DNA from: Desulfobulbus propionicus
Lineage (GTDB): Bacteria; Desulfobacterota; Desulfobulbia; Desulfobulbales; Desulfobulbaceae
Length of the DNA: 64,000 bases
NCBI GenBank assembly: GCA_002748755.1
Contig: PDTD01000008.1
Location: 81,271 to 145,270 of the forward strand
Direction: 5' to 3'
Each line of letters opens with the position of its first letter. Within the stretch, counting starts at the first letter, position 1. The notes beneath the pieces are model-generated. The model did no database searches. It was not told the DNA's origin and saw only the letters and a program-made list of their open reading frames with translations. This document shows positions 1,555 through 39,067 of the stretch, piece after piece. Position numbers and translations under genes: made by a program.

Positions 1555-1984
1555 TTTCATCAAGACTGGACCTCCCCATGATTCTTATGATTGTCAGCCT
1601 TCAAGGATGGCATAGAGAAAAGTACGTACTCACAAGAGCTGTACCCTTATTTGTTGCACCTGCTTGACACCTATAACCACTCTATGCGGCTGATCGCGAT
1701 CACTGGAAGATGGGTAAGCTGGGAGCAGGTACTGAAGAAAACAATACCATGATCGGCACCAAAAGGTCTTCATGTGCAACCACTGTCCTCTGGATGGCAC
1801 CTCCGTCGGCCAAACCGTTGGGTAGCCCGATTTTTGTCGATATTTGAGTCGGCTCACCCATAGCATATCCATCTGTTTTTGTATCTTTTTTTTCAAAGAT
1901 ACAAAATGTTCATAAGAAATTGGGGCGAGCACCGCTCCAGTGGACAAGGTGCAGACAATAAAGACATAAGAGCAACACAAAAAG
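1550..1984. other. Gene-free stretch with a MITE relic
   Basis: No convincing coding sequence is seen on either strand. The right part (about 1832-1925) is a degraded copy of the dispersed MITE family described at 60038-60157: it keeps the TTTGTCGATATTTGAGTC-like body and the right-end ACAAAATGTTCATAAGAAAT. The left part (1555-1830) shows nothing recognisable. Confidence 0.5.
1832..1925. repeat. MITE family relic, copy E (right half)
   Basis: It shares the body and right terminal segment with the complete element at 60038-60157 and with the copy at 5629-5725. The terminal CCAGGCTAG end has decayed to TTGGGGC. Confidence 0.6.
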
Positions 1985-2012
1985 CCGCCCACATTTCTGT
2001 GGGCGGTTTTTT
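1985..2012 (-). terminator. Bidirectional terminator downstream of tRNA-Arg
   Basis: A 9-bp perfect stem (1985-1993 with 1998-2006, CCGCCCACA/TGTGGGCGG) has T-rich flanks on both sides. It lies 8 nt past the CCA end of the tRNA-Arg gene on the minus strand. Confidence 0.85.
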
Positions 2013-2020
2013 GCTGTCTC

Positions 2021-2327
2021 TGGCACGCCAACCAGGATTCGAACCTGGGACCTACGGCTTAGCTTACCACTTCGGATTTCCCCGCCCTGCCTACTCACAG
2101 GTTCGTGGTCTGGACTATCCCTTCATCGTATTCAGAGAAATTCTGAACGTAGATGCCAACCGTCTAGTCTCTACACCTTCCCGCTGTTTCTGGCGGGCTT
2201 GGCTCGGGATTGCCATTTTGCTTCTAACAATACAGGTTTCCCCGAATTTGGCTGGTTCTACTCTTGAGGTTTCCCCCAAGGCACTCCAATTGAAGGCCGT
2301 TGCTCTATCCAGCTGAGCTATTGGCGC
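2021..2327 (-). tRNA. tRNA-Arg (UCU), interrupted by a group I intron
   Basis: The two exons (2293-2327 and 2021-2062) join into a 77-nt tRNA with encoded CCA. The acceptor stem is GCGCCAA/TTGGCGT with a G1-U72 pair, the D-stem GCTC/GAGC, the anticodon stem ACGGC/GCCGT, and the T-arm CCAGG-TTCGAAT-CCTGG. The spliced anticodon loop reads CTTCTAA, giving anticodon TCT. A20, C35, U36 and discriminator G73 all fit arginine identity. The 230-nt insertion sits between anticodon bases 34 and 35, so ordinary tRNA finders are likely to miss or mis-call the gene. A decoding tRNA for AGA codons requires accurate splicing. Cloverleaf and exon boundaries are read directly from the sequence. Confidence 0.93.
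2063..2292 (-). ncRNA. Group I (IC3-like) self-splicing intron in tRNA-Arg
   Basis: The 5' exon ends in U and the intron ends in G, as group I chemistry requires. A short P1 with the U-G wobble forms between the exon CUU and an internal GAG. Blocks that match the Azoarcus tRNA-Ile group IC3 intron from memory are visible in order: AGTGCCTTGGGGGAAACC, CCAAATTCGGGGAAACCT, GGCAATCCCGAGCCAAGC, GAAGGTGTAGAGACTAGACG (with the G-binding P7 strand) and GGATAGTCCAGACCACGAA (the other P7 strand). There is no open reading frame for a homing endonuclease, so the element is a minimal ribozyme. Insertion between positions 34 and 35 is the same site as the cyanobacterial tRNA-Leu(UAA) intron. Confidence 0.93.
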
Positions 2328-2427: not shown

Positions 2428-4749
2428 CTACCTCGTTCTTCCAGATTTTTCCCAGATTGTCCCACCGACCGTGTCAAGAACTGTAACTCCCTGTCGCAAC
2501 AACTCTTCCCGGACAGAATCAGCAGCGACCCAGTCTTTGATTTGACGGGCTTGCTCACGCTGTCTGATTAGTTTATCGATCTCCGGTGTCAACGGGTATT
2601 CTTCCAGCTGCATAATGCCCAATGTTCGATCAATGGTCTGCAGGACTTCCAGGACATCTTTTTTCTGCTTACGGTCCAGTTGCCTATCCTGCAGCACGGG
2701 ATTCAGCTTTTTTATAAACAGAAACAGAGCGCCCAACGCACCGGAAATATTTAGGTCATCATCCATTGCCTCAGTAAACTGTTGCTCCAGTGCACTGATA
2801 TAGGCAGCAACCCTGGGATGGGGCAACCCTACAGACAGGCACACGAGTTTCCTGGTAAAGGCATCAAGCCTCTTTAAAGAAGTGACAGCGCTTTCCAATC
2901 GTTTGAAGGAAAAATGAAACGGTTTACTGTAGTGGACCTTTTGGAGCATAAACCGCAGGTCTCGGGCTGTGAAGCCCCGCTCCAGAATATCATTCAGGGT
3001 GACGATGTTACCGGCGTCTTGCGACATTTTCCTGCCACCGCGCAAGACAAGCCCCGAGTGTATCCAAAAATTGGCCAAAGCCTTTCCTGTCAGCGCCTCT
3101 GCAATGGCTATCTCATTTTCATGATGGGGAAAGATGAGGTCCTGACTGGCCGTATGAATATCAAGGGTCTCTCCCAGATACCTGGTCGACATGGCAGAGC
3201 ATTCAATATGCCATCCCGGCCGAACATTTCCCCAGTCTGTCTCAAAAAAAATACCTCTTTTTAATTCCGCAAGCGTTGAACGCTTGAGCAAGGTGAAGTC
3301 ACGGGGATTATCTTTCTCATAATTATCCAAATCCACGGTCCGGCCAACCCTGATTTTGCTCAAATCCACCCTGCTGAGCCGTCCATACTTTTTAAACTTG
3401 GAAATATCAAAATAGATTGAGCCGAGTTTTTCGTAGGCATACCCCTTATGAATCAGTTTATGGGTGATCTCCAGCATGTCCTCGACATGTTCTGAAGCTA
3501 GAGGATATCCGGTGGCAGGCAGGACAGATAGCATCTCAGCCGCTTGGTGAAACTCCTGGATATACTGACCGGTAAATTCCTTAAGACTGAGTCCAGAAGC
3601 CTCAGCACCGGCGATGGTATTGTCATCGAGATCAGTAATGTTCATGTAGGATTCGACGTTATACCCCCTGAAACCAAGGTAACGCACAAGCATATCCGAC
3701 ACCACCAGACGCCGTAGGTGCGCAACGTTGGGCGGCTCATACGCTGTCGGCCCACAAGAATACAGAGTAACGCGCTCTTTACTGACCGGTTCGAACACTT
3801 CTTTCTTGCGGGTCATGGTATTATAAAAACGAAGTTGTAAAGCCTCTTTGGTGGTCTTCTGCTCCTGCACAAAAAGAGGTGTACTCAGGTAACGCTCACC
3901 ACCATCGGGCAAAACGACTACCACCAATCCCTGCTCCATCTCATGGGCTCGTGCAATACCGGCAAAAACCCCTGCACCACCACTCATTCCAGCAAAAATC
4001 CCTTCTTCAGCGGCGAGCCTGCGGACAGTCGCAAAGGCATCCTCATCAGCGACATTGATGATGGCATGGGGCAAGCTCTTATCAAAAATACCAGGCCGAT
4101 ACGACTCCTTCATATTTTTTAATCCCTGGATCTTGTGCCCCAGGTACGGTTCAATGGCCGTTACACGTACTGCAGGGTGATACTCCCGAAACCATTTTGA
4201 CAGCCCCATTGCTGTCCCGGATGTACCGAGAGTGACAACGACATCGGTTACCTGACCGGCTGTCTGGTCCCAAATCTCTGGTCCGGTACTGTTGTAATGG
4301 GCCATCCAATTGGCGGGATTGTTATACTGATCGGCAAGGAAATAGCGTTCAGGGTGCTCCCTGGCAAGAGAATACGCCTTCTCAATGGCCCCATCCGTGG
4401 CCCGTTCGGCCGGGGTAAGAATTAATTCAGCTCCATATGCCTGCATAATGAGGCGGCGTTCTATAGAGGCCGACTCTGGCATGATCAACTGGCAACGATA
4501 CTGTTTGGCTGCACACACCATAGCCATGCCGATACCGGTATTACCACTGGTCGCTTCCAGAAGAATTTTATCCCGGGTCAACTCTCCACTTTTCTCGGCA
4601 GCTTCCACCATGGACAGGGCAACTCTGTCTTTTATTGAGCCTCCCGGATTACTTGACTCAAGCTTGACAAGCAAAGGAACACTGGTTTCAGAGGTCATCC
4701 GCTGCAATGCAACCAGCGGGGTATTGCCAATGAGTTCTGTTATTTTCAT
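2428..4749 (-). CDS. Fusion of cysteine synthase (CysK) and cysteinyl-tRNA synthetase (CysS)
   Basis: The 773-residue single chain joins O-acetylserine sulfhydrylase (1-300) to a class I CysRS (about 305-773). The CysK half keeps the PLP lysine (K40 in GGSIKDR), TSGNTG (67-72) and GTSGT (175-179). The CysRS half keeps the zinc ligands: Cys of SCGPT (332), Cys of WHIECS, and His/Glu of PHHENE. The two catalytic signatures are odd: HIGH reads NVAH (341-344) and KMSKS reads KMSQD (574-578). The start is placed at 4749, not the longer frame at 4806, because AGAAGG precedes it and the CysK N-terminus (MKITELIGNTPLV) begins there. The fusion would couple cysteine synthesis to its charging. Whether the synthetase half is fully active is open. 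Confidence 0.92.
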   Translation of the reverse strand: MKITELIGNTPLVALQRMTSETSVPLLVKLESSNPGGSIKDRVALSMVEAAEKSGELTRDKILLEATSGNTGIGMAMVCAAKQYRCQLIMPESASIERRLIMQAYGAELILTPAERATDGAIEKAYSLAREHPERYFLADQYNNPANWMAHYNSTGPEIWDQTAGQVTDVVVTLGTSGTAMGLSKWFREYHPAVRVTAIEPYLGHKIQGLKNMKESYRPGIFDKSLPHAIINVADEDAFATVRRLAAEEGIFAGMSGGAGVFAGIARAHEMEQGLVVVVLPDGGERYLSTPLFVQEQKTTKEALQLRFYNTMTRKKEVFEPVSKERVTLYSCGPTAYEPPNVAHLRRLVVSDMLVRYLGFRGYNVESYMNITDLDDNTIAGAEASGLSLKEFTGQYIQEFHQAAEMLSVLPATGYPLASEHVEDMLEITHKLIHKGYAYEKLGSIYFDISKFKKYGRLSRVDLSKIRVGRTVDLDNYEKDNPRDFTLLKRSTLAELKRGIFFETDWGNVRPGWHIECSAMSTRYLGETLDIHTASQDLIFPHHENEIAIAEALTGKALANFWIHSGLVLRGGRKMSQDAGNIVTLNDILERGFTARDLRFMLQKVHYSKPFHFSFKRLESAVTSLKRLDAFTRKLVCLSVGLPHPRVAAYISALEQQFTEAMDDDLNISGALGALFLFIKKLNPVLQDRQLDRKQKKDVLEVLQTIDRTLGIMQLEEYPLTPEIDKLIRQREQARQIKDWVAADSVREELLRQGVTVLDTVGGTIWEKSGRTR

Positions 4750-4867
4750 ATGTACAACCTTCTCTACCGTCCAAGGGGGGGACGATAAAAACACATAATT
4801 CCGCACCCTCTCACAAGAGCGCCCCAGTACTTACACCCTCAAAAACCAAGTGTTTGGGTTTGCTGCA

Positions 4868-38695: not shown

Positions 38696-39060
38696 GAGGG
38701 GTGAGCGCATGATCGCTCCGGCAGAGGCCGGAGAGGAAAGTCCGAACACCGCAGGACACAGTGGTTCGTAACGCGAACCTTGGGCAACCAAGGGAAAGTG
38801 CCACAGAAAGCAGACCGCCGATGGAGCGTTTGCCGCTCACAGGCAAGGTTGAAAAGGCGAGGTAAGAGCTCACCGCTTTCATGGTGACATGAAAGGCATG
38901 GTAAACCCCACTGGGTGCAAGACCAAATAGGGAAGCGCCTGAGGGCTGTCCGCCCGAGCTTCCGGGTAGGTTGCAAGAGATGCCGGGCGACCGGTATCCC
39001 AGTCAAATGATCATGGTTCGTCTCTGGCGAAAACAGAATTCGGCTTATAGCTCACCCCTT
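38696..39060 (+). ncRNA. rnpB: RNase P RNA, bacterial type A
   Basis: The hallmark blocks GAGGAAAGTCCGAACACC near the 5' end and ACAGAATTCGGCTTATAG near the 3' end are present. P1 closes with GGGGTGAG (38698-38705) and CTCACCCC (39051-39058). The internal GGTAAACCCC and GCAAGACCAAATAGG blocks fit the type A class. The 3' side of P1 runs into a T7 tract (39059-39065), forming the terminator. The product is the catalytic RNA that matures tRNA 5' ends. Confidence 0.96.
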
Positions 39061-39067
39061 TTTTTCA

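Follow-up and report, generated by a model that had tools for sequence, protein, structure and literature searches.

A tRNA-Arg(UCU) gene split by an IC3-like group I intron in the Desulfobulbales, and a split copy beside a broken ordinary copy in Desulfogranum marinum

Group I introns interrupt the tRNA genes of several bacteria. The pre-tRNA-Ile(CAU) of Azoarcus carries an IC3 intron of ~200 nt with no open reading frame, and the tRNA-Leu(UAA) gene of cyanobacteria and plastids carries an intron inserted after U34. The intron described here, which splits a tRNA-Arg(UCU) gene in a 64-kb stretch of DNA (the window), appears to have core motifs like those of the Azoarcus intron, which lies in another tRNA and at another site in the anticodon loop. 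It shares its insertion site after U34 with the cyanobacterial and plastid intron, again in another tRNA, the comparison being one of site. In the literature, the cyanobacterial and plastid tRNA-Leu(UAA) intron is described (PMC4033280, PMC5733544), insertion at 37/38 is given for most bacterial tRNA introns (PMC4033280), group I introns are reported in fMet and Ile2 genes together with the remark that tRNAscan-SE was not made to detect them (PMC8450103), and the phage group I introns seen by 2014 are placed in protein genes (PMC3984707). The isoacceptor of the window gene is itself represented: putative group I introns are reported for tRNA-Arg-TCT in Thiomargarita nelsonii Bud S10 and, with reference to MacGregor 2013, in the orange Guaymas Beggiatoa (PMC4853749, 2016). 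Unlike the window, these hosts are Gammaproteobacteria (Beggiatoaceae), and the likeness is one of isoacceptor and span (324 nt there, 307 nt in the window). Among open-licence papers we found no survey of tRNA-Arg(UCU) introns.

The window carries, on its minus strand, a 77-nt tRNA-Arg(UCU) in two exons, 2327-2293 and 2062-2021, separated between U34 and C35 by a group I intron of 230 nt. The features of the locus are these:

1980..2020, minus strand: hairpin and T-run directly 3' of the tRNA; stem CCRCC/GGYGG, as behind two related split genes
2021..2062, minus strand: 3' exon of tRNA-Arg(UCU), C35 to the encoded CCA (42 nt; ARAGORN with introns)
2063..2292, minus strand: group I intron, IC3-like, without a sense ORF, final base G (230 nt; RF00028 60.6 bits; covariation P2-P9b; 136.7 bits with R1, our own model of IC3-like introns, a score that is not independent because the window is one of the model's 8 training rows)
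2293..2327, minus strand: 5' exon of tRNA-Arg(UCU), up to U34 (35 nt; ARAGORN with introns)
2428..4806, minus strand: fused cysteine synthase / cysteinyl-tRNA synthetase gene (cysKS), 792 aa, just upstream of the tRNA (Pfam PALP and tRNA-synt_1e; synteny)

When run without introns, ARAGORN missed this gene in the window; with introns allowed it called tRNA-Arg(tct) with a 230-nt intron, and the joined 77 nt were likewise called tRNA-Arg(tct). In the joined exons the cloverleaf stems pair, the anticodon is UCU and CCA is encoded. The Rfam group I covariance model RF00028 matches at 2303-2094 (60.6 bits, E 6.7e-13, with the gathering score at 50), and at E values up to 1 this intron is its single match in the whole 2.0-Mb assembly. 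A reading of the sequence alone (the sequence-only reading) had proposed a 230-nt group I intron without an ORF that splits the anticodon of a tRNA-Arg(UCU) gene between bases 34 and 35; the covariance model and the tRNA calls bear out the intron and its host gene, and the exon boundaries agree to the base. The lack of an ORF holds for the sense strand, where stops interrupt all three frames of the intron and no homing endonuclease is encoded. One antisense frame is open across the intron as part of a mechanical 145-aa ORF (1879-2316), for which no Pfam family match was found. Elsewhere in the window lies a class A RNase P RNA (38697-39063, 309.8 bits).

We aligned eight IC3-like introns, namely those of the window, Desulfogranum marinum, a Halothiobacillus MAG, a viral Arg, a viral Leu, a viral Lys and a plasmid Leu gene, and a partial fMet intron of genome G014. 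The P2 to P9b structure was written by hand from the window intron, itself one of the eight aligned sequences, which favours that structure. Across the alignment, standard pairs fill 96.4% of the 333 cells of the 43-pair fold, and 23 of the 43 pairs have changed on both sides; none of 500 shuffles matched the fold's score, and sliding the partners left 26.7-46.7% paired. Three of its helices are:

2264..2279, minus strand: P2 hairpin with GAAA loop (80.9% of cells paired; 6/6 pairs changed on both sides)
2156..2255, minus strand: P3, 5' strand 2255-2250 and 3' strand 2161-2156 (100% of cells paired; 4/6 pairs changed on both sides)
2113..2169, minus strand: P7, by analogy the guanosine-binding helix, 5' strand 2169-2165 and 3' strand 2117-2113 (100% of cells paired; 1/5 pairs changed on both sides)

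Both helices of the P3/P7 pseudoknot core are thus paired in all cells of the eight sequences, with compensatory changes in each. We use the label IC3-like provisionally, for core motifs that appear Azoarcus-like and for GAAA loops in P2 and P9b. As expected of group I introns, the final exon base is U and the final intron base G. By analogy with known members of the class, the exon end GGCCUU would pair with an intron guide (GAG, one bulged base, GCC), with U-1 paired to G7; in duplex folds U-1 lies opposite G7 in the window and in genome G539, whereas the viral Arg copy and that of Halothiobacillus place an A there. P7 would bind an external guanosine that attacks after U34, and the freed 5' exon would then attack after the final intron base, joining U34 to C35. 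With high confidence we infer both the splicing and the dependence on it: the tRNA-Arg(UCU) gene would be functional, and its transcript would have to shed the IC3-like group I intron of 230 nt for AGA to be read.

To place the locus among others we scanned for a final intron G followed by a UCU 3' exon, a pattern that fixes the insertion site and so covers only this site. It matched at least 118 genome-contig stretches and 29 viral stretches (at least 148 with the window). Among the 148 matches listed, our own pattern detected no 5' exon within 1500 bases at 45, and 2 more were weak; the other 101 had both exons and pairing stems, corresponding to 92 genome contigs, 8 viral contigs and the window. 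Hosts among the matches listed include many Gammaproteobacteria MAGs, Thiodiazotropha, Thioalkalivibrio, Exiguobacterium, Lysinibacillus, Hydrogenimonas and Bacteroidota, and intron lengths at the listed loci range from 202 to 697 nt. The sequence-only reading had taken UCU to be a new host isoacceptor; PMC4853749, with its tRNA-Arg-TCT introns, and the at least 92 further genome contigs and 8 viral contigs of our scan overturn that claim and rule out a first UCU intron in bacteria. By core motif, seven of the 101 listed loci are IC3-like (the window, L148, L178, L207, L214, L222 and L224), the four viral ones carrying one and the same intron; the other 94 are of another kind, and 91 of these share a single P7 spacing. 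R1 matched all 54 sources given, that is, the window and 53 of the 100 other split loci among the matches listed, in each of the 53 inside the Arg intron and on the right strand (weakest L114, 23.5 bits). With Rfam, none of 11 loci of the commoner kind had its Arg intron above the gathering score, and at E values up to 0.1 only L137 matched among seven such loci (E 0.012). By sequence, two or more kinds of group I intron occupy the position after U34 in tRNA-Arg(UCU), in several phyla and on viral contigs. Two sets of calls were set aside along the way: an Rfam match in L212 (7271-7725) is another intron, and ARAGORN calls of Ser(gct) and SeC(tca) are not other tRNAs, as their loops become CUU + CUAA once the final G is assigned to the intron.

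Closer to the window, RF00028 was passed by 3 of 73 genomes of the family, and R1 matched 4 of 257 genomes of the order Desulfobulbales (under strict filters, with some genomes incomplete). Besides the window genome (G000), two relatives have the same split gene. One is G003, of the same genus, which shares its split gene with Desulfogranum marinum DSM 2058 and which we take to be that species; the other, G539, belongs to a different family. The fourth R1 match, G014, lies in an initiator-like tRNA-Met(CAU), and the tRNA-Arg(UCU) gene of that genome is intact; the split Met gene of G014, which belongs to the window's family, holds a 322-nt IC3-like intron (L054:1331-1729). In the relatives examined, tRNA-Arg(UCU) lies mostly behind cysKS, and the split genes of G000 and G539 sit directly behind it; the cysteine synthase and cysteinyl-tRNA synthetase fusion itself also occurs in relatives of the order. 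A weak RF00028 match in G024 (27.5 bits) was rejected as a split tRNA, no tRNA being found there. The exact pattern matched 1 of 395 genomes of the phylum, the window's own.

New here is the genomic context, in which a split copy lies beside an ordinary copy broken next to an integrase gene. D. marinum has its ordinary tRNA-Arg(UCU) gene in two parts on two contigs, plus a separate split copy. The 5' part, on one contig, keeps the usual upstream flank and cysKS and extends to CAACGGCCTTCTAA; its 3' counterpart, on another contig, contains the same 14 bases and has a terminator like that of G004. The broken gene is intron-free and its flanks resemble those of G004, where a 47-residue stretch lies 0.4 kb behind the tRNA; in D. 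marinum the distance from the 3' part to this stretch is ~4 kb. The 3' part is adjoined by a tyrosine recombinase of 380 aa (PF00589, E 2.3e-30), and transposase genes and further ORFs lie beyond it. The split gene begins ~0.14 kb after the 5' part, and in the gap between them 26 bases match the region before the recombinase gene (25/26). The two contigs that carry the tRNA parts end in the same 127 bases. These features point to an integrase-type event as the probable cause of the break in the ordinary gene, with the split copy near one edge; one element may span both edges. Among the matches listed, extra tRNA matches lie near split genes at 4 of 101 loci (loci of up to 14.8 kb, window 64 kb), and a lone half only in D. 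marinum. This genome also has two lone 5' parts of tRNA-Arg(UCG) (L051, L052), one of which shares upstream bases with the intact gene L050; they are perhaps further integrase scars.

As to origin, we tentatively favour, at somewhat less than even chances, arrival of a whole gene: in Desulfogranum the split gene would have come as an extra copy, as it still is in D. marinum, and replaced the ordinary gene in the window genome. The window exons are alike at 76 of 77 positions to the D. marinum split copy (1 difference) and at 73 of 77 to its ordinary gene (4 differences); from the ordinary gene of G030 they differ at 3 positions only, which counts against transfer of the exons. The terminator stem CCRCC/GGYGG lies behind all 3 split genes and behind none of 18 ordinary genes, a count that leaves out G015, which runs off its contig, and includes four loci missed by the first pattern; the terminators are short, and the shared stem could be chance. 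A gene that arrived with its own terminator is favoured because the exons are closest to the split copy and this stem is found only behind split genes. Against it, our searches found no vector carrying the order's split copy.

The exons of the split gene in G539 differ at 1 of 77 positions from the ordinary gene of G046, of G539's own family, and so look resident, which favours intron entry there or descent. This weakened whole-gene transfer to the tentative standing given above and raised, to a serious possibility, the alternative that only the intron was mobile, entering resident tRNA-Arg(UCU) genes through homing or reverse splicing. Such movement would explain how G539 combines family-like exons (76/77) with an intron 84% like the window's, and related introns do occur in Arg(UCU), Leu(UAA), Lys(UUU) and fMet genes; however, the intron has no sense ORF for a homing enzyme, D. 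marinum has its split gene in addition to the ordinary one, and the kind of terminator goes with the split genes.

In the tRNA array of viral contig L214 (L214:3526-5058), IC3-like introns lie after U34 in Arg(UCU) and Leu(UAA) and, as best read, after U35 in Lys(UUU), and plasmid pCTX-M3 has a tRNA-Leu(UAA) split by an IC3-like intron (L233:2463-2761). These plasmid and IMG/VR genes carry the same kind of intron as the window gene but, unlike it, sit on plasmids or viral contigs. Core identity to the window intron is 97/138 for the plasmid Leu intron and 97/129, 98/136 and 91/128 for the viral Arg, Leu and Lys introns; for the viral, plasmid, fMet and Halothiobacillus introns it is 70-75% whatever the tRNA. 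The intron tree mixes tRNA identities and its deep splits are weak. In it the window intron groups with those of D. marinum and G539 (FastTree 0.744, IQ-TREE 96), and then with Halothiobacillus (0.695, 85), so that a tie to the viral Arg intron was not borne out; taken together, the IC3-like introns receive 1.0 from FastTree and 26 from IQ-TREE, in an alignment fitted to the model of that set. Movement from one tRNA to another, at which the sequence-only reading had hinted, is consistent with the range of tRNA genes that carry IC3-like introns: the same kind of intron occurs at the like site of tRNA-Leu(UAA), and also in Lys(UUU) and fMet genes.

Several observations on these elements stand apart. 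Viral contigs L214, L222 and L207 (83-281 kb) have tRNA arrays with group I introns in two or three of their tRNAs. Among 72,556 plasmid records, 1247 match the window intron (60-80% identity), 1245 of them over at least 80% of its length, and 19 of the 20 plasmid matches listed have no annotated feature under the match. In the two plasmid records examined (L233, pCTX-M3, and L234), the split tRNA-Leu(UAA) lies near aac(3)-IId.

Inheritance of the intron from an ancestor within the Desulfobulbales, with loss in most lineages, is the less likely course. It would account for a split gene right behind cysKS in both G000 and G539, of different families, and for G539 exons that follow their family. 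Moreover, intron identity to the window (90%, then 84% for G539) falls together with CysKS identity (71%, then 62%), as vertical descent would give, and this counts against transfer. Against descent, a search of the order under strict filters detected no such intron in the tRNA-Arg(UCU) of 254 out of 257 genomes, some of which are incomplete, and the broken ordinary gene of D. marinum was intron-free with G004-like flanks.

Whatever its origin, the split gene appears to be the only one of its kind in its genome. The G000 assembly (44 contigs, 2.0 Mb, 90.7% complete) yielded 26 tRNA genes, with no intact tRNA-Arg(UCU) among them, and a search of G000, G003 and G539 with the ordinary 77-nt gene returned the split pieces and other tRNAs and no intact UCU gene. 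This absence is stronger for G003 (100% complete) and G539 (99%) than for G000, given the lower completeness of the latter. AGA makes up 128 of 906 Arg codons in the 39 window ORFs of at least 200 aa, some of which may be spurious. Because no intact UCU gene was found in the three genomes and AGA is used, splicing is probably required for AGA decoding in G000. The sequence-only reading had made the reading of AGA depend on splicing unless a second copy exists, and the assembly supports it in that no other UCU gene was found, the splicing itself being what we infer. That the split gene is decayed and yields no tRNA, with an intact gene in the unassembled part, is very improbable: the assembly is incomplete and has few tRNAs, so an intact gene could be missing, but the cloverleaf stems pair, CCA is present, the ribozyme helices stay paired through sequence changes, and neither G003 nor G539 yields an intact UCU gene.

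The position of the intron invites a further idea. Lone tRNA-Arg(UCU) 3' parts with a PF00589 gene within ~0.2 kb also occur in G030, G026 and G039 (chosen loci, without a systematic count), and the likeness of lone 3' parts to the tRNA starts within the anticodon arm, where the intron sits. Because this likeness begins in the arm where the intron lies, the intron could hide an attachment site. It is conceivable, though we regard it as doubtful, that the split gene is an integrase-proof spare: tyrosine recombinases of the order would cut the anticodon arm of tRNA-Arg(UCU), the intron after U34 would remove the site from the DNA, and splicing would restore the tRNA. D. marinum is the sole case bearing on this reading, and it shows coexistence, not protection. 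A like idea for disrupted tRNA genes of archaea is credited to Randau and Soll in PMC4390854; among open-licence papers we found no work that connects attachment sites with the group I introns of bacterial tRNA genes. If the idea is right, an element or host that carries the split copy could safely lose the ordinary gene, and the concealment of attachment sites would be the reason that tRNA genes retain group I introns.

By default, ARAGORN skips the split tRNA-Arg(UCU) gene. D. marinum offers a testable case, with a split tRNA gene beside a copy broken next to an integrase gene, and in the Desulfobulbales, where such genes are rare, an essential decoding step apparently rests on splicing by a ribozyme.
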